This document shows positions 14,066-37,146 of a stretch of DNA of 46,100 nucleotides, in pieces (the stretch's first letter is position 1; each line of letters begins with the position of its first letter). This DNA is from a bacterium (GTDB taxonomy: Bacteria > Verrucomicrobiota > Verrucomicrobiia > Verrucomicrobiales > Akkermansiaceae). A program made the translations under genes and the position numbers. Under the pieces are notes generated by a model that searched no databases, was not told the origin of the DNA, and saw only the letters and a list, made by a program, of their open reading frames with translations. The stretch covers positions 1 through 46,100 of the forward strand of contig JAAEZT010000002.1 of the NCBI GenBank assembly GCA_018222765.1, read 5' to 3'.

Positions 14066-17000
14066 TTAGACTTCATCCTTACCCAACCACCGGAAAGATA
14101 CGATCCGAAATCGACGACCGAAATCGACGGCGCTGCCGACGACCGCTTCGGGGTTCAAGCCCACTCTGTCGGGATTCATTGGCTCAGGCGTGCGCTGCAC
14201 TCTCGCTTCGCACCAAGCCCGGGCCTGAATCTTTCCACTAACGTCCTTTGACTCTCCGTATGAGCGAATCACAAAACTATCTGATCTAGCCGAGAGGGTT
14301 GAACCAATAATTTGCAAGACATCACCTTGGGTCAGGTAACCCGGAATACCCCAAGCTGTTGAGGGAGGCTTATCCACCTGTCTGAGACGAGTGGAATCCG
14401 AAATATTTGCCTGACCGGGAACAACCAAATTGACGTCCGGCAATTCATAATCCCGGTTGATTGGATACTCCGCAATGAGAGTATCGTTGATTCCTGCCCG
14501 ATAGATCGCAGCTTCAATTGCGCCCTCTCTACCTGTTTCATCCATGGTCAGTCTGCGATTTACAAAGTCAGCAAGCCCAAAGAAGGGCGCTCTTGTTTTC
14601 ACCTCGTATACCATCGCTTCGGCAAGGGCATCGATTTCGTCAACCTGCAGACTCCTGAATCCATCGTAGGCAGCCTCATTAATCCGATCTCCAAGGTAAT
14701 CGCGATTGTCCTTACTCAAAAGTCTCGGATAAGGAGTAACTCCTTTACTTCCGAACCCAATATCCCGGGTCGATGACAGAATGGCTTTCCATGCTTGCTT
14801 GCTGGTCGAGTGGACATCAAATGCCCCTTCAAGACTTAAGCGCGAGGCGGCACGGTGGAAATCAAGAAGGTCACCAGACAAGTCCTCACCTCCATCAAAC
14901 ACTCCAAAACGTCCGTTTGGCAATGGATTCGCTCCGGGATCATCTGCAAATCTCTGCTTTTGATTAATCGTTCCCGTTGACACAAAGAAGTCATCCCAAA
15001 GATTGAAGTTGAGCTCAAAACTCTGATCGTAGATCAGATTGCTCTCCTTCATTGTGTCGAATAGAATAGTGCGAATCAACCAGGCCCAATACTCACCCTC
15101 GAATTTCGATCCACCCCGACTGCCTCGTCCCAAGAAATAACCATTCCAACCGGTATATTTTTGCTCGGAAGAACCATTCAAAATCGGGCTGGTTCCCGTT
15201 CTTTCGACACGCGGATCAACAAGTGAGTTCCCGATGGCATAACTGGGATGCCACGCAAACTCCGACAACTTCAAATGTCGAAGATACGAAATTGAGGGTA
15301 GGCCAACATCCTTACTCGGGAGCTCAAAAGCAATCAGGCCAGACGGCCCCGCATTAGGCGAGGTAAACGGGAAAGTTGTGTTGAGACCATCTCTCGAAAC
15401 CGGAGTCATGTCGCTGAAGGTCACTTCGGTATCCGGGAAATCACGCATATAAACTCCGTGGAAATATGGCGGAGTATCGCTCACATTATCAAAGGGAGTT
15501 CGAGTGTAATAAGCCCCCCGCAAATTCCAGGTCCCCAGAGCCGCAGTTTGAAGGTGGGCCCCATCAGTCTTGGTTAATTTGCCTGAGTTCAAAATATTGG
15601 ATTTCGTCTCCTTCCACCACCTCAGACGAAAGCCATCTCTGGTGAACACCGATGGCTCAGGCAGTCGGTCAAAACCGGTGGTAATGTCGGTTACTGGGAA
15701 GGAGGTAATCAACTCAAGAGGCAATTCGTCAGATCCCCCTGCCTGCAAAGAGATGTTTGCCACGGAAAACAAGGGCAACTGAGCAAAGGTCGAGTAGTTA
15801 ATATTCGTCCTTCCTTCGTTAAGCCTCAATGAGACCATGTAGTTATCCGCCCCATTGATCTTGCCAGTATCTGGCACTTCCCGAACCGAAGTTGGCGGGG
15901 AGTCCAATTGCAAATCAGAAATCATCTGACCTCTCACTCTCTGTTGTCCAATGTAATCCTGATAAAAACATCTCGAGGCAGAAGGCGCAACACTGGCAGA
16001 CAAACGATTATTACTAAAATTGATCGCATCCAAGGGAGCGGCAGTAGATGGAGAAAAGACGAGCGATTGACCTGCTGGAATATTGGAACTGGGGATCTGC
16101 ATGAAAATCATGCCGGAAAGGTTTCCACTCTGACGACCTGGCGATCCTGGTGGCGCTCCGGTCTGACCAAAATAAATATTCTGATACTTCAATCCACTCG
16201 CAGTGGTAACCTCAATTCGTTTGTTACCATTAACAAACAATTGGCAGGTCATTGCCGGCACCTTCAAGTCAACACTATAGGGATTCCACAACGCCACCCT
16301 GGGATACATGCATAGGCTCAAACGATACTTGGCGGTTGTCCCGGATCCCACTTTCTTGTAGCCAACATTGTAGTACATGTTGGCCTCCGTCAGAAGAGGG
16401 GTAATATTTGGCTTAGTGAATGGGGTGAAAGCCACCGTGCTTTTATTGGTTCTGTCATAGAAGCCGTCTCCATCGTTTGCCGAAGGTGGATTTCTCCATC
16501 TTTCCGGAGTCACCTGATCCATCGTTTGTCGGTTAAAGCTATTGGTTTGGGAGAACAAAAACCATTCTCTGAACACCCCGAAAGTCGGCGCAATCTCTTT
16601 ATAGCGCGCAGAGTCCCAATCAAACCCTCTAAACCCGGCCATTTTTTCATTAATTGGTCCTACCAGGAAATCTTCATCATCGAGCCCCTGATAATGGGCC
16701 GCTTCAGTACTAAGATCCTGAATACTGCCATCACTCAAAATGTAGGCGGTCAAATCACGCTTGAGTCCCCCGTCGCGAACATTGGCCAATACTCCCCTGG
16801 AGTATCCTGTAATATTGTGGAAGTTGTCCTTGATTGCCTCTTTGTTCCTTGGGTGAACCAAGGCCATCGTATTCAGCGTAATCAACTTGGCCGCTTCGTC
16901 TTCAACAACGTCGGCAATGCCATCGATAACCGCAGCCTCGACATCCTGGGCGTTAATCAGTCGCTGAATCCCTCCCCCTTTTCCATCGATCATCTCGTCA

Positions 17001-17719
17001 CGGTGAGTGTCGGCCACGGAGACTGCCGCCTTCGCGCCAAGGGAACCAATCCAAAACCCATAACCACCCAGATCGCGGTAATCTTTAGTGCCATTTGGCA
17101 ACAGCTTTTCTTTCTCAGTGGACACCCTCTTCACGAAAACCTGATCATTCAGATTATTCACTGAACCTGGCCCGACAATATTCACCCGTTCATCGCCGTT
17201 TCCCAAATTTGCATTAATCGCATCCAGAAACTGTCGCTTACCCGACATCTTACGCTTGCCGCCCTCGTTTCCACTCACCAGATATCCATTCACGACGTCT
17301 CGGGCCCGGTAAGCCGTGCCTCCTCGGGCGTCTGCCATTCCACCGTTATACTCATCGTCCCGGGACCAAGGACTGCCGTTTTGGTTTCCCTCGTATACCG
17401 TGGAAAAAACGCCCAACCAGTTGGGATGTTCCACACCGTCAATCTCAAGAGAGTCGGGCTCGCGATCCAAAATTGACGCACTGGCCGAAATCCGGCGGTC
17501 GGGGCCCATCTCACGCTGCAACTCTCCGAAGGCAATCATCAATCCCAAACGAGCATTCGCGCGAGCCTCTTCCCGGGCCCAATCATCACGAGCCGTTCGA
17601 ACAGTGAGTGCTGATAGTGAAAGGAATGCGACCGCGACCAAGGTCAACAAAAGCAAAACCGAAATTGTCGCAATAAGCGCGAAACCAGGACGGAATGGAG
17701 AAACTCGTTGCAGCTTCAT
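14066..17719 (-). CDS. Giant prepilin-like membrane-anchored protein (Verru_Chthon/PilX-like)
   Basis: The 1217-residue product begins with a short basic leader ending RPG, followed by FALIATISVLLLLTLVAVAF. This resembles a type IV prepilin-like cleavage site (G12/F13) and hydrophobic helix, though the usual glutamate at mature position 5 is missing. The helix leads into TARDDWAREEARANARLGL, typical of PilX-like minor pilins and of large Verrucomicrobia proteins such as the Verru_Chthon cassette A group. The remaining ~1150 residues have no recognised catalytic motif. Recurrent W-rich segments (YGFWIGSLGAKAAVSV, GYGFWIG-type) and many Asp/Asn/Gly turns suggest beta structure. I chose the ATG at 17719 because it starts the leader directly. 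Surface, pilus or secretion-related roles are possible. No other pilin gene is adjacent. Confidence 0.7.
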   Translation of the reverse strand: MKLQRVSPFRPGFALIATISVLLLLTLVAVAFLSLSALTVRTARDDWAREEARANARLGLMIAFGELQREMGPDRRISASASILDREPDSLEIDGVEHPNWLGVFSTVYEGNQNGSPWSRDDEYNGGMADARGGTAYRARDVVNGYLVSGNEGGKRKMSGKRQFLDAINANLGNGDERVNIVGPGSVNNLNDQVFVKRVSTEKEKLLPNGTKDYRDLGGYGFWIGSLGAKAAVSVADTHRDEMIDGKGGGIQRLINAQDVEAAVIDGIADVVEDEAAKLITLNTMALVHPRNKEAIKDNFHNITGYSRGVLANVRDGGLKRDLTAYILSDGSIQDLSTEAAHYQGLDDEDFLVGPINEKMAGFRGFDWDSARYKEIAPTFGVFREWFLFSQTNSFNRQTMDQVTPERWRNPPSANDGDGFYDRTNKSTVAFTPFTKPNITPLLTEANMYYNVGYKKVGSGTTAKYRLSLCMYPRVALWNPYSVDLKVPAMTCQLFVNGNKRIEVTTASGLKYQNIYFGQTGAPPGSPGRQSGNLSGMIFMQIPSSNIPAGQSLVFSPSTAAPLDAINFSNNRLSASVAPSASRCFYQDYIGQQRVRGQMISDLQLDSPPTSVREVPDTGKINGADNYMVSLRLNEGRTNINYSTFAQLPLFSVANISLQAGGSDELPLELITSFPVTDITTGFDRLPEPSVFTRDGFRLRWWKETKSNILNSGKLTKTDGAHLQTAALGTWNLRGAYYTRTPFDNVSDTPPYFHGVYMRDFPDTEVTFSDMTPVSRDGLNTTFPFTSPNAGPSGLIAFELPSKDVGLPSISYLRHLKLSEFAWHPSYAIGNSLVDPRVERTGTSPILNGSSEQKYTGWNGYFLGRGSRGGSKFEGEYWAWLIRTILFDTMKESNLIYDQSFELNFNLWDDFFVSTGTINQKQRFADDPGANPLPNGRFGVFDGGEDLSGDLLDFHRAASRLSLEGAFDVHSTSKQAWKAILSSTRDIGFGSKGVTPYPRLLSKDNRDYLGDRINEAAYDGFRSLQVDEIDALAEAMVYEVKTRAPFFGLADFVNRRLTMDETGREGAIEAAIYRAGINDTLIAEYPINRDYELPDVNLVVPGQANISDSTRLRQVDKPPSTAWGIPGYLTQGDVLQIIGSTLSARSDSFVIRSYGESKDVSGKIQARAWCEARVQRTPEPMNPDRVGLNPEAVVGSAVDFGRRFRIVSFRWLGKDEV

Positions 17720-17804
17720 GATGCCCACTATGTAAACACATTGTGCTTTCAAAGCAACCCCCAAAATGAGGATCCCTTCTCAGCGCAACTCTCCACTCAG
17801 ATTG

Positions 17805-24114: not shown

Positions 24115-25299
24115 CTATTTCTGATAATACACCCAGACGAAGCCGGTCCGTTCTTCCTTCATGAGTTCCCTGCACTTGTCATCGTGCTCAATCCTTTTTT
24201 TGTTCCGCTCCTGCCGAGCCTCCTTGGTGGGAATTTTTGAGAGCTTGTCACGGAGCTCATTGAATTCTCGATCCAAAGCCTTGATCTGCTCTTTAGCCTC
24301 CTCCCAGGAAGCGTCCCCAAGAGGAGACTTCAGAATCACCCGGTCACCGACAATGAGGTCGAGCTTTCCATCGCCATTGAGGTCATCGACCCAAACACGT
24401 GAAGAGTCGCCAACGAAAGCATTCTCATTTGCCCAACGACTGGCAATCTCAGTTCCTGTGGTGAGTGTCTCGAACTTACCCAGAGAAATCGGCTTTCCCT
24501 TGCCGGCAGAATTCTCAGACCAAACCACCTCCCCTCTGGCACCACCGGAGAGCATGTCGAGATCACCATCGCCATCCCAATCGATGAAGAAGGGATCACT
24601 GTGATAGCTGGGGATTTTGAGCGCCTTATCTCCGCAATCGATGCGATTCGACTCGGGCTTGAACTTTCCTTTCCCTTCACCCTCGAACCAATAAAATGTT
24701 CCTTTGAAATTACCCACAACAAGATCGAGGTCGCCATCGGAATCGAAATCGACAGCCGTCGGCCGAGTGCAAATGCGCGATGTGACGGGATCGGTCTTTC
24801 CTAGCTTCTCAGGCGTGATGATCAGGAACTTTCCGTCTGTGCCTTTCAGCGGATCCGGCTTCCTAAATCCGCCACCTTTCTTCCCCCAAAGCACCTGAAA
24901 GAGACCAGCCATTTCGGGAAGATCGTCTCCGCTGTATGAACCGGAGAGAATGTCGATATTTCCGTCGCCATTAAGATCCACAACCTGTGGAGTCGAGGAG
25001 GTGCATCACCAGACACCGGGTATCTTGACCGGCTGGCCGTCGACCTCGAGAAGCTCCCCTTGAGCGAACTTCCCGTCGCCAAGCCCTTTAAAGACATGAA
25101 TGTAACCATTGGCGAATTGACCGACTAAAAGTTCCTTTTTCCCATCGCCATCGAGATCATGGAGACAGGGAGCGGCGTAGCCGGGAGATTGGGTCTTGAT
25201 CGGCTGATCTCCGCCCTTGAGCTGAGCCGGGGCTTGGAATTCATAAGCCTCTGCAAATGAGGGACACAACAGAGAGAGAGAGAGGACGAACGTTTTCAT
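24115..25299 (-). pseudogene. Secreted FG-GAP/VCBS repeat protein with one in-frame TGA
   Basis: A single frame runs from ATG 25299 to the stop at 24115 with one TGA, at 25008-25006. Read through, it gives 394 residues: a signal peptide (MKTFVLSLSLLCPSFAEA), then five DxDxDG calcium-loop repeats (DLDGDGKKELLVG, DLNGDGNIDILSG, DFDSDGDLDLVVG, DWDGDGDLDMLSG, DLNGDGKLDLIVG), and a Lys/Glu-rich helical tail. The repeats continue in register on both sides of the TGA, so the frame is preserved and only one codon is affected. The local reading is KIPGVW-stop-CTSSTPQ. Explanations are a recent nonsense mutation, a sequencing error or selenocysteine insertion; a hairpin with a GGT loop lies 20 bases downstream (see findings). 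I mark it as a pseudogene provisionally. It is divergent from pdhA. Confidence 0.75.
24977..24990 (-). promoter_or_regulatory. SECIS-like hairpin downstream of the in-frame TGA
   Basis: On the minus strand TCCACA-GGT-TGTGGA forms a 6-bp stem with a 3-base loop. The loop GG begins 20 bases after the TGA at 25006-25008. A short stem with G at the top of the loop, about 20 bases past the UGA, is the layout of bacterial selenocysteine insertion elements such as fdhF. The bulged U of the E. coli element is not evident. The hairpin could be chance within the coding sequence. Confidence 0.3.
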
Positions 25300-33212: not shown

Positions 33213-34568
33213 TTATACACTACCCAAAACACCGGTTGAATCACCGAAACTCTTCGCGCTCACCCCAAATTCATTGAGCATCCGCACATAAAGATTTGAA
33301 AGAGGAACTTCTCCACGAAGATCAACATGACGCCCAGGCGTCAATGCACCTCCGCCACCACCTCCCACGATGATCGGAAGATCATCGTGGTTATGACGAT
33401 TTCCATCCGCAATGCCGCTTCCGTATACGATCATGGAATTATCTAGAAGCGACTTCCCGTCGACATCCTCGGTATTCTTCATCTTCTCCAAAAAGTAAGC
33501 CAACTGCGTCAAATAATATTGATCAATCTTTTGGATCTTTTGGAGGTTATCCTTCTTGTCCTTATGGTGGGAAAGATTGTGATGGCCCTCGGATACGCCA
33601 ATCTCTTTGAAGTTTCGATTACTTCCGTCATGAGCCATCAGGAAAGTGGAAATCCGGGTCGAGTCAGTTTGGAAAGCGAGCACCATCATGTCCATCATGA
33701 GCTGCATATGCTCCGCGTAGTTCTTCGGCTTACCCTCGGGAGCAGCAACGCCAGGATCGATCGAAGTGAATGATTCAGCTTTCCCAATCCGACGTTCGAT
33801 CTCACGAACTCCCGTGAGATATTCATCAAGTTTGTGCTGATCATTACGCCCAAGGCGACGCTGCATTGCCTTGGCGTCATCGGAAATGAAATCGAGAATC
33901 GACTTCTGCGATCCCATTCGCCTCGCGAGACTCTTCTTTCGCTCGTCCGCTGATCCGGCTCCAAACAAGCGCTCAAAAACAAGCCGCGGATTTCCTTCCG
34001 GAGTCATCGGCTGGGAATCGGATCGCCAGGAAAGATTAAATTGATAAGCACAAGAATAACCGGAGTCACATTTTCCTGATTTGCGGACGCCATCGCAAGT
34101 GAGTTCCAGAGAGGGAAGCCTCGTTTGATCCTCGGCAGCCCGGGCCGCGATTTGGTCCACGGAGACTCCAACTTTGATGTCCGCACCCGAAGTTTTCTTG
34201 GCCCGCTGGCCGGTCAGAAATGTCGCATTACTCCGTGCGTGATCACCCGCGCCATCCGGTCCCGCCTTGGCATGTTGGTGGGCAAATCCGGTGTAAACCT
34301 GAAACTGGTCTTTCAGCCCCTCAAGCGGTGCCATCGACTTTCCGAGCTTATAGTTAGCTCCCGTGCCAGACGGACGCCAGTGCTCCAAATTCACGCCATT
34401 TGGAATATACAAATATGCCATACGTAGCGGGCTCCCTGCCGCCGTCGTTGCCACCCTCGAAGCCGTCGCAGCCATCAAGGGGCGCATAGATTCCAAAGCC
34501 GGCAAGGTCACGGCCGCTCCCAGACCGCGTAAAAATCCGCGGCGATTGATACCCGATGGGCTCTTCAT
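33213..34568 (-). CDS. DUF1552 secreted protein with Tat signal
   Basis: The 451-residue product starts with a twin-arginine signal (NRRGFLRGLGAAVTLPALES, R9/R10), typical of exported folded proteins. The rest matches the DUF1552 layout: LRMAYLYIPNGVNLEHW, YTGFAHQHAKAGPDGAGDHAR, SVDQIAARAA, DEYLTGVREIERRI, STFLMAHDGSNRN and NSMIVYGSGIADGNRHNHDDLPI. The repeated H and D residues and the sequence of conserved blocks resemble sulfatase-like DUF1501 relatives, which are also Tat-exported; catalytic activity is not established. It is almost always next to a DUF1592-type cytochrome protein, as here (upstream, 178 bases away), so the two probably act together. Confidence 0.88.
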   Translation of the reverse strand: MKSPSGINRRGFLRGLGAAVTLPALESMRPLMAATASRVATTAAGSPLRMAYLYIPNGVNLEHWRPSGTGANYKLGKSMAPLEGLKDQFQVYTGFAHQHAKAGPDGAGDHARSNATFLTGQRAKKTSGADIKVGVSVDQIAARAAEDQTRLPSLELTCDGVRKSGKCDSGYSCAYQFNLSWRSDSQPMTPEGNPRLVFERLFGAGSADERKKSLARRMGSQKSILDFISDDAKAMQRRLGRNDQHKLDEYLTGVREIERRIGKAESFTSIDPGVAAPEGKPKNYAEHMQLMMDMMVLAFQTDSTRISTFLMAHDGSNRNFKEIGVSEGHHNLSHHKDKKDNLQKIQKIDQYYLTQLAYFLEKMKNTEDVDGKSLLDNSMIVYGSGIADGNRHNHDDLPIIVGGGGGGALTPGRHVDLRGEVPLSNLYVRMLNEFGVSAKSFGDSTGVLGSV

Positions 34569-34644
34569 GTGGAAATAATACGATAAATCTCGAAATTATC
34601 TCGCATAAAATTACCGACTTAGAATCCAATCAGCTTCTCAAGAG

Positions 34645-34664
34645 CCCGAAAGATCCTTTCCGGG
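34645..34664. repeat. Inverted repeat between the DUF1592 and DUF1552 genes
   Basis: CCCGAAAG and CTTTCCGGG pair with one bulged base across a 3-base loop, within the 178-base spacer. No T-tract follows on the minus strand. It may be a processing or mRNA-stabilising hairpin that lets the two genes differ in expression. Confidence 0.3.
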
Positions 34665-34746
34665 AAATACTCCTCTGGCAGCCCAACCCCTGACGGCTGA
34701 GAGATAGACTAATATATTTCAGCAAGCCCCCAACTTCTCGAGCAAA

Positions 34747-37065
34747 TCAATCCCCACGGCGTTTTTGGAAAGGAGCACTCGTAATCACGCCCACCACTAG
34801 TTCTTTGAGACTGCCATTTTTATCATGCAATCTCTTCACCAGGGCATCAATGGTTACCGCATCAAAATACTCCGGCCCGCGACCAATGGCGTAAGTCAGT
34901 AGCTTCTCACTAAGACAGCGATAAAAATCATCCCTCCTTTCATCGGCCAGAATCGACTTGAGTGTGGTCACATTGGAAAATTTCTCTCCCGTCACCAACT
35001 GCCCTCCGGAATCAATCTTCACCCCTTTCTCATCCGAGCGAAACTGACCGAGCGCATTGAAGTTTTCCAATCCCAAGCCAATCGGATCCATGCGCGCATG
35101 GCACCCCGCGCAGATCGGCTTCTCGCGATGCACTTCCATCATCTGCCGCATCGTCATCGACTTCTCGGATTTGTGAGTAATCTCCTCCAATTCGGGAACA
35201 TTCGGCGGCGCAGGAGGTGCGGGCGTCCCCAGAAGATTATCGAGCACAAACAATCCCCTCTTCACCGGAGAGGTCCGCGTGGGATTCGATGTCACCACCA
35301 GAAATGTTCCCTGCGTTAAAATCCCCCCCCTTTCTGGGTGCTCGGTGAGGTCGACCAGTTGATGCTCTTCTCCAACAACGCCATTCACTCCGTAAAACTT
35401 CGCGAGACGCGAGTTCAGAAAACTGTATTTCGCCGAGATCAGCTCTTCCGCTGGACGATCATTTTTAAGCACGAACTCAAAGAACATCTCGGTCTCTGTT
35501 TTCATGTCTTTCTTCACTCGACCATTGAATACTTTTGTCGCTTCCAACTGGCTCGTCGTGTTTAAAATCCGCCGCGGATCTATCGCAAATTCCTCGATAT
35601 CCCGAGACTGCAGCCATTGTCCGACAAAATTCTCCACGAAACGCCGCGAACGAGAATCCTCGAGCATCCGGTCAACCTGAGACCTTAGGTTTTTACGAAG
35701 CTCTTTCTTATAAGCCAAACTCAGCAACTCATCATCGGGCACCGAACTCCATAAAAAGAACGAAAGTCTCGCCGCCAGCGCATACTCATCAAGCAGGACT
35801 ACCTTGTCTTTGTTGTTCGGCTCGGGCTGAATCTCAGCGCGAAATAGAAATCGCGGGGAAGCCAATACTGCCGTCATGGCATGCTTGATGCCGTCTTCAA
35901 AAGTCCGTCCGGGAGAACCATCGACTTTCATCGCCATCTTCACCAAGCGAGCCACCGTTCCACTATCGAGTGGCCGCCGGAAAGCCCGGCTCACGAAGCT
36001 CCTCATAATCTTGCGGGCATACAATTCACGATCCCGCATCTCCTTCGGAGCCGGACCATCCACCATAATCATTTTATAGCCCTTCGGAGGCTCTTTGAAA
36101 CTTCCATCCAGGGGACCCTTGATTCTCACTACCTTGACGACCAAACCTTGCTCCCCCTGATTCTCGCCAGGAGGTTTTTTGGCAATCAATTTCACCTCGA
36201 GATGATTTCCTCCCTTCTTCAATTTCGTCTTCGAGCTCAAACGAATATAATCCCGCTGATCCCAACCCAAGGCCCGTTGGGCAACCTTTTTCCCATTAAT
36301 AAAGAACTCGAGGTAGGCGCTCTGATCCGTCGCCTCATCCGCACCGCGAATCGCAAAATCGAAATTCACATCGTAATACCCCTGCGCCGGAGCTGAGATC
36401 TCCGCCTCCGATGAGGGGGATGTTTTAAAAGGCAACCAACTTCCGCGTTGCTTGCCATCATCAACCAAGCGGAATTGGCTCCCCTCCACTTCTCGCACCG
36501 GCATCGCGGTGGCCGCTCCTCTTGGAAGAGCCATCTCTACGATGCTTGATGCCGCCTCGATATACTTCTCCATGTGCAGAGGAGAGATCGTCAACACTTC
36601 GCCAATCGTATCGAAACCATACCCGGTATCATCCGCCGGAAAATTATCCCAGGTGGCATACTCCACTCCGAGGAGATCTTTAATGGCGTAATAGTATTCT
36701 GTGCGATTCAGCCGCCGAATGGTAACCCGCCCCGGATCCGGATTTTTCGGGTCCAATTTAAAAACCTCTCTCTCAATCCAAGTGAGCAATTGCTTCTTCT
36801 CCTCAACTTCCAGCTGATCCTTTTCGGAAGGCGGCATGATTTGCGAACGCACATTGCGCCAAATCGCCATCCAATGATCCACATCGTTGAGGTGTTTAGT
36901 GAGATCCTTGAATTCATCCATCGAGAACTCCCCCTTCGCTTTTCCGTCGCCGTGACAATCAATACAATAGGCATCCAGCAAAGGTTCAATCTCCTCTTCA
37001 AAACTCACCTTAGCACCGGCCCACGCCATGCCAGTTGCCAGAAAGAAGCATCTCAGAAATCTCAT
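34747..37065 (-). CDS. PSCyt1/DUF1587/1595/1592/1588/1585 cytochrome-like protein
   Basis: The 772-residue product has a signal peptide (MRFLRCFFLATGMAWAGA) followed by a planctomycete cytochrome C (PSCyt1) heme motif CIDCH at residues 34-38. DUF1587 follows (RRLNRTEYYYAIKDLLGVEY), then a carbohydrate-binding-like beta region, DUF1595 (IMRSFVSRAFRRPL), DUF1592 (YALAARLSFFLWSSVPDDELL), DUF1588 (RGGILTQGTFLVVTSNPTRTSPV with a second CAGCH) and DUF1585 at the C-terminus. This is the standard order in Planctomycetes and Verrucomicrobia. The role is unproven; a periplasmic redox function on a polymer substrate is often assumed. I chose the ATG at 37065 because it begins the signal peptide. It precedes the DUF1552 gene. 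Confidence 0.9.
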   Translation of the reverse strand: MRFLRCFFLATGMAWAGAKVSFEEEIEPLLDAYCIDCHGDGKAKGEFSMDEFKDLTKHLNDVDHWMAIWRNVRSQIMPPSEKDQLEVEEKKQLLTWIEREVFKLDPKNPDPGRVTIRRLNRTEYYYAIKDLLGVEYATWDNFPADDTGYGFDTIGEVLTISPLHMEKYIEAASSIVEMALPRGAATAMPVREVEGSQFRLVDDGKQRGSWLPFKTSPSSEAEISAPAQGYYDVNFDFAIRGADEATDQSAYLEFFINGKKVAQRALGWDQRDYIRLSSKTKLKKGGNHLEVKLIAKKPPGENQGEQGLVVKVVRIKGPLDGSFKEPPKGYKMIMVDGPAPKEMRDRELYARKIMRSFVSRAFRRPLDSGTVARLVKMAMKVDGSPGRTFEDGIKHAMTAVLASPRFLFRAEIQPEPNNKDKVVLLDEYALAARLSFFLWSSVPDDELLSLAYKKELRKNLRSQVDRMLEDSRSRRFVENFVGQWLQSRDIEEFAIDPRRILNTTSQLEATKVFNGRVKKDMKTETEMFFEFVLKNDRPAEELISAKYSFLNSRLAKFYGVNGVVGEEHQLVDLTEHPERGGILTQGTFLVVTSNPTRTSPVKRGLFVLDNLLGTPAPPAPPNVPELEEITHKSEKSMTMRQMMEVHREKPICAGCHARMDPIGLGLENFNALGQFRSDEKGVKIDSGGQLVTGEKFSNVTTLKSILADERRDDFYRCLSEKLLTYAIGRGPEYFDAVTIDALVKRLHDKNGSLKELVVGVITSAPFQKRRGD

Positions 37066-37146
37066 GCGCCTTCTTTTACGCCGGAAGATACAGAATTCTA
37101 ATTGATATTTCATTTTTCGTGAAATTTGCCCTATCCTCCCCAGCAC

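Follow-up and report, generated by a model that had tools for sequence, protein, structure and literature searches.

Bacterial selenoproteins that rely on a bacterial SECIS element (bSECIS), such as formate dehydrogenase and SelD, share an in-frame UGA codon, a hairpin directly downstream of it, and a genome with the full selenocysteine (Sec) machinery. The latest inventory found, dated 2026, counts 119 prokaryotic selenoprotein families and subfamilies (PMC13188914, Table 1) and gives the constraints on a bSECIS as a loop of 3 to 9 nt, a stem of 4 to 16 bp, a G in the first two loop positions, a spacing of 16 to 37 nt, and an MFE of -7.5 or lower. No FG-GAP, VCBS, or propeller family is among the 119 listed there. 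In another account, the usual picture is one of Sec occurring sporadically among widespread Cys homologues (PMC1088965). According to its own description, deep-Sep may overlook selenoproteins that lack Cys homologues and, where there is no known Sec homologue, requires at least two Cys-containing matches in the top ten (PMC12013277). In the open-licence papers searched, selenoprotein occurs together with FG-GAP in two and together with VCBS in one, all of them off the subject by title and abstract, and selenocysteine occurs together with FG-GAP in none. PMC4807772 deals with the selenoproteins of planctomycetes, and its table S9 of candidates may include an FG-GAP one. A preliminary description of the locus studied here had regarded a selenoprotein family of FG-GAP type as new if real, which agrees with the literature searched.

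The window, which is the whole stretch of 46,100 nucleotides analysed, comes from a bacterium of the Akkermansiaceae (Verrucomicrobiota) with a genome of 4.33 Mb in 87 contigs (97.8% complete). On its minus strand, a frame (24115..25299) runs from an ATG at 25299 to a TAG at 24117-24115, and its sole interruption is a TGA at 25008-25006. Read as Sec, this TGA (25006..25008, minus strand) becomes residue 98 of a 394-aa protein. The DxDGDG-type calcium loops keep register upstream and downstream of the TGA, as the preliminary description had noted, and the next codon is indeed TGC (25003..25005, minus strand), encoding Cys99, the partner in a Sec-Cys pair (...IPGVW-U98-C99-TSSTPQVVDLNGDG...). 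Residues 1 to 18 (MKTFVLSLSLLCPSFAEA; 25246..25299, minus strand), as read from the sequence, probably form a signal peptide with a putative cleavage site at their end, and many homologues in a 25-row alignment also have a hydrophobic N terminus. The read-through protein matches FG-GAP_3 (PF13517; 89.6 bits, E 2e-25, cut-off 26.9) and FG-GAP (PF01839; 45.1 bits, E 8e-12, cut-off 22.1), and it has in common with FG-GAP/VCBS repeat proteins the repeats, the calcium loops, and the probable secretion. Unlike the window gene, the five other FG-GAP matches in its own genome are partial (33 to 39% identity over 70 to 100 residues) and have no internal stop. A comparison of five propeller proteins with NCBIfam found no family above its own cut-off. 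Weak Pfam matches to a Tc toxin subunit repeat segment, mostly below the cut-off and barely above it in one planctomycete homologue (L206), were taken as shared repeats.

Homologues with the same interruption are numerous. Searching 192 related genomes gave 25 matches, spread over 17 genomes with the window's own among them; exactly one in-frame TGA is present in 23 of the matches, at 32 to 95% identity to the window protein (itself 100%), and the TGA column is invariant in the 25-row alignment. The remaining two matches are pieces of one apparently broken copy, a close relative of the window gene (L051 678-1460, genome G004, also seen as L018/L025), in which a second TGA interrupts the signal peptide and no single frame connects the pieces. 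Among 387 genomes drawn across the window's own phylum, four were matched at E <= 1e-25 (own included), three with one TGA and one, the distant relative L060, with no stop and with neither TGA nor Cys at the site. In the Planctomycetota, 96 of 392 genomes were matched at E <= 1e-30, 89 of them with the TGA form and seven with only a no-stop form; 30 loci and 60 fetched rows of this phylum were read at the base level and the remainder were judged by internal-stop count alone. Base-level reading of 121 loci gave TGA at 114 and TGC or TGT at seven, including four loci (L071, L100, L106, and L108) that were missed by the first motif scan and carry TGA. Once sites identical over 48 bases were merged, the two phyla together hold 110 distinct TGA sites and seven distinct Cys sites; a recount over all loci gives 118 distinct TGA sites, a few of which come from later fetches outside the 110. 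These counts leave out loci at the same places as others (L047, L048, L057, and L061-L063), the pieces of the broken copy (L018, L025, and L051), loci with the site absent or outside coverage (L060 and L066), and general FG-GAP matches (L002-L006). The preliminary description had considered Cys, Trp, and Sec as possible residues at this position; the aligned homologues have TGA or Cys, with Cys at all seven non-TGA sites and Trp at none. The residue after Sec is Cys at 109 of the 110 distinct TGA sites, the exception being a distant Sec form (L030) with the reversed order Cys-Sec (DNCUAAG). Several genomes hold two to four paralogues (L052, 1660-4122 of Pla86; G009, G071, G548, and G931), which lie close together in G009 and in the planctomycete strain Pla86, the latter with two copies in tandem. 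Plasmid records contained no match to the family at E 1e-10, and viral contigs gave nine weak matches at 22 to 30% identity.

In the seven Cys forms the sequence is ...YCCVG.QPRFVD... or ...GCCIGFTPQMAD...; Cys takes precisely the place of Sec, and its partner Cys is retained. On a quick maximum-likelihood tree of 117 rows, midpoint rooted and with some long branches, two changes are needed to explain the Sec/Cys label, and both Cys groups are nested within Sec groups. Under this midpoint root, Sec is likely the ancestral state of the FG-GAP family and Cys the derived one, the opposite of what PMC1088965 describes as usual, with Sec scattered among widespread Cys homologues.

The machinery that Sec insertion would need is encoded in the window's own genome. 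The preliminary description had named selA, selB, selC, and selD as the genes to look for, and all four are present: selA (488 bits) and selB (272 bits) each score above their cut-offs, selD reaches 374 bits, and a tRNA-Sec with anticodon TCA reaches 54 bits. The selD gene itself (L054, C60:58831-59760) contains an in-frame TGA in the motif GGUASK, and a strong hairpin with loop GUC follows the UGA, which is an independent sign of Sec use in this genome. In the Planctomycetota, selA was found in 86 of the 89 TGA-type genomes versus 155 of the 296 without the family (Fisher p 4e-17), and in the 192 related genomes it was found in 16 of the 17 with the family versus 72 of the 175 without it (p 3e-5), both p values being inflated by shared ancestry. 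Only one of the seven planctomycete no-stop genomes (G736) has selA. The TGA-type genomes with no selA match (G001, G721, G760, and G880) are perhaps incomplete assemblies.

A hairpin follows the UGA of the window gene (24977..24991, minus strand), with a stem of six pairs (UCCACA/UGUGGA) and a GGU loop at 24985-24983. The preliminary description had placed it 20 bases downstream of the TGA; the six base pairs and the GGU loop were found as described, and the figure of 20 nt holds for the start of the loop, whereas the stem begins 14 nt after the UGA. With its GGU loop, 6 bp, spacing of 20 nt, and -9.1 kcal/mol, the hairpin lies within the bSECIS ranges given in PMC13188914, its MFE being no better than that of shuffled sequences. 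The 45 nt downstream of the UGA reach -9.1 kcal/mol in the fold with the hairpin, where shuffled sequences average -9.97 (z 0.39). If the piece is cut to 30 nt, a different hairpin wins (-7.6, z -1.60), and another structure is preferred when the UGA is included in the fold. Taken from this single sequence, the window hairpin is not remarkable against chance, and Rfam gave no match at the gathering score in the window.

It is the homologues that raise the hairpin above chance, with TGA at 110 of 117 distinct sites, Cys codons at the other seven, and a core stem that is kept with compensatory changes. The core stem of four pairs forms at 107 of the 110 TGA sites, leaving three genes in which it is not fully paired, and at none of the seven Cys sites. 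Shuffling among synonymous codons, at the codon usage of the ORF concerned, would produce it at 23.3 of the 110 sites, with a maximum of 44 in 20,000 simulations. The MFE fold includes the hairpin at 100 of the 110 TGA sites, and the MFE is -7.5 or lower at 108. Where a Val codon faces the wobble base of a Pro codon it is GTG in 89 of 89 cases, compared with 36% of the Val codons elsewhere in the same ORFs. The commonest codon pairs of the stem are CCA-GTG (76 sites), CCG-GCG (18), TCA-GTG (7), and CCC-GTG (3), followed by CCG-GTG (2), CTG-GCA (2), CTG-GTG (1), and CCA-ATG (1). Sites at which Val is replaced by Ala (GCG) use the Pro codon CCG and not CCA, and at one locus (L100) the residues are altered to PS-VM with the stem preserved as CCAUC/GAUGG. 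Cells with both sides of a pair changed number 26, as opposed to 5.3 in the shuffles and with 0 of 500 shuffles as high; the number of pair types shows no clear excess (37 of 500 shuffles as high), and all such covariation and shuffling tests are limited by the kinship of the rows. When the pairing partner is slid along the sequence, paired cells drop from 89.7% to 53% or less. Judged by this comparison of homologues, the hairpin is under selection as RNA, and its role as a SECIS element in the window gene is held with a confidence that falls little short of certainty. The family would then offer a large body of natural sequences for the study of covariation in a minimal bacterial SECIS, in which residues shift in step to keep the hairpin.

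These observations bear on two ways of accounting for the TGA without selenium. The preliminary description had called a nonsense mutation or a sequencing error the simpler explanation, and a mutation, a pseudogene, or an assembly error could equally leave a frame intact but for one TGA; one relative copy (L051) does look broken. This explanation fails on the recurrence of the same TGA in independent genomes, at 110 distinct sites across two phyla, with frames intact on both sides at 32 to 95% identity and with a hairpin that bears the marks of selection, and we reject it as having almost no probability. A reading of UGA as another residue, by near-cognate read-through or as Trp through a change of code, would likewise leave the frame open. 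Yet four of the 16 other window ORFs examined end in TGA, and one of these four has clear Pfam domains. Every non-TGA site has Cys in exchange, the tRNA that carries the TCA anticodon belongs to the Sec type, and the TGA forms track selA; UGA as Trp was rejected on these grounds, and the wider reading is very improbable. Decoding of UGA98 as Sec, by contrast, we regard as very probable, and that the window hairpin directs it is also highly probable. As inferred from the sequence, SelB and the Sec-tRNA(UCA) would bind the hairpin 20 nt downstream and the ribosome would then read UGA98 as selenocysteine, in the same mode as in other bacterial selenoprotein mRNAs. Standard ORF rules cut the genes of this family into two fragments.

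A structure model built from seven sequences (mean pLDDT 85.1, pTM 0.83) aligns best with five-bladed propellers, the first being a GH62 arabinofuranosidase (VIA-align Z 20.6, rmsd 3.5, 267 residues, 9% identity); five is the blade number that we take these best-aligning solved folds to have. PVL-type lectins top the Foldseek list. The window protein is best explained as a secreted five-bladed FG-GAP beta-propeller selenoprotein. The GH62 and GH43 five-bladed propeller glycosidases are the closest solved folds, and at 9% identity the resemblance is one of fold only; no glycosidase family is among the Pfam matches of the window protein up to E 0.1, and no selenium-containing propeller enzyme was seen among the structure matches listed. 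From the blade pattern in the 25-row alignment and the strands of the model, the Sec98-Cys99 pair is predicted to come immediately ahead of the inner strand of blade 2, on a loop leading into the central strands. We infer that the pair sits on the face with the active site in GH43-type propellers.

Fusions offer a further indication of function. The end of the ORF was seen for 108 distinct sites, nine of which extend more than 430 residues beyond Sec, a number that partly reflects the selection of long frames for fetching. Five of the nine, all from planctomycetes (L191, L197, L200, L202, and L206), carry a DsbD_N domain above the Pfam cut-off, and L193, L198, and L199 have no further domain above it. 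In L191 (1681-3999, minus strand, genome G731), the propeller with its UC pair is followed by DsbD_N and then by an AhpC-TSA peroxiredoxin. A second in-frame TGA lies within the AhpC-TSA domain (FYPKASTPG-TGA-T), presumably at the peroxidatic position of peroxiredoxins, and reading through it gives a nearly full-length AhpC-TSA match (E 4e-32), so that L191 is a probable double selenoprotein. Neither DsbD_N nor AhpC-TSA is among the Pfam matches of the window protein, and the link from these thiol:disulfide interchange proteins and peroxiredoxins to the window protein would run by propeller homology alone. The fusions suggest thiol/selenol redox work outside the cytoplasm, a reading drawn from the DsbD_N domains and from the one case with AhpC-TSA and a second UGA. 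For the pair itself, with fusions at five of the 108 sites whose ORF end was seen, we put a redox function at roughly even odds. The Sec-Cys pair would alternate between its reduced state and a Se-S bond, and its electrons would come from a DsbD-type thiol relay of the kind fused to some family members.

Two other roles for a genuine Sec-Cys pair were weighed against redox catalysis. Adjacent Cys-Cys is a known soft-metal motif, and the pair might bind a soft metal or metalloid (Hg, Cu, or As) in the propeller. A precedent exists in SaoB and SaoC, listed with CU motifs, in which Sec may be a metal ligand according to PMC13188914. The fusions found are with thiol-redox modules, however, DsbD_N and peroxiredoxin, and no neighbour gene of any kind recurs; metal binding is somewhat unlikely. 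The pair could instead have a structural role, as a vicinal Se-S ring that gives its shape to a face for binding a carbohydrate or a cofactor, for which the adjacent-Cys ring of methanol dehydrogenase is an analogue and with which the GH62/GH43 propellers and PVL-type lectins among the structural matches would fit. Structural disulfides seldom require Sec, though, and here 110 of 117 sites retain Sec in preference to Cys despite the cost of a SECIS, so that a structural role seems unlikely.

The genomic surroundings add little to this choice. Clustering of 216 ORFs from 19 regions found no conserved neighbour gene; only three clusters occur in at least three regions, and from coordinates and sequence these are apparently the FG-GAP gene's own two halves together with ORFs antisense to it. 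In the window, the flanking genes encode pyruvate-dehydrogenase-type E1 subunits and an MlaE permease, with no obvious link to the FG-GAP gene. Elsewhere in the window, an ORF of 1232 residues (14066-17764, minus strand) has no Pfam match at E 1e-5, and a DUF1552 protein adjoins a planctomycete-type PSD/PSCyt cytochrome protein (33213-37146, minus strand).

Returning to the redox reading, we give a balanced chance to the broader proposal that these genes form a large overlooked family of Sec-dominated enzymes, secreted five-bladed propellers with a vicinal Sec-Cys active site and electrons of the DsbD type. Such a family would be widespread in the Planctomycetota and present in the Verrucomicrobiota, and it would have been missed since a search that relies on Sec/Cys pairs needs Cys homologues in abundance; the Cys-homologue requirement in the description of deep-Sep (PMC12013277) fits the overlooking of a family dominated by Sec forms. 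If this is right, members of one selenoprotein family occur in 89 of the 392 planctomycete genomes sampled (86 of the 242 that have selA), Sec redox chemistry extends to a fold beyond the thioredoxin-like folds prevailing in the inventory, and the role of selenium in the secreted proteins of these bacteria becomes testable.

Set beside formate dehydrogenase and SelD, the window gene has the same in-frame UGA, the same directly downstream hairpin, and the same full Sec machinery in its genome, so that the mechanism would be of a known kind. What appears to be new is the family, the fold, and the Sec-rich distribution. As an FG-GAP propeller, the window protein differs from the bSECIS families in Table 1 of PMC13188914. 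It also stands apart from known bacterial selenoproteins in a predicted fold that is not thioredoxin-like, in a motif of adjacent U and C, and in Sec forms that, at the sites read, far outnumber the Cys forms (110 to 7).
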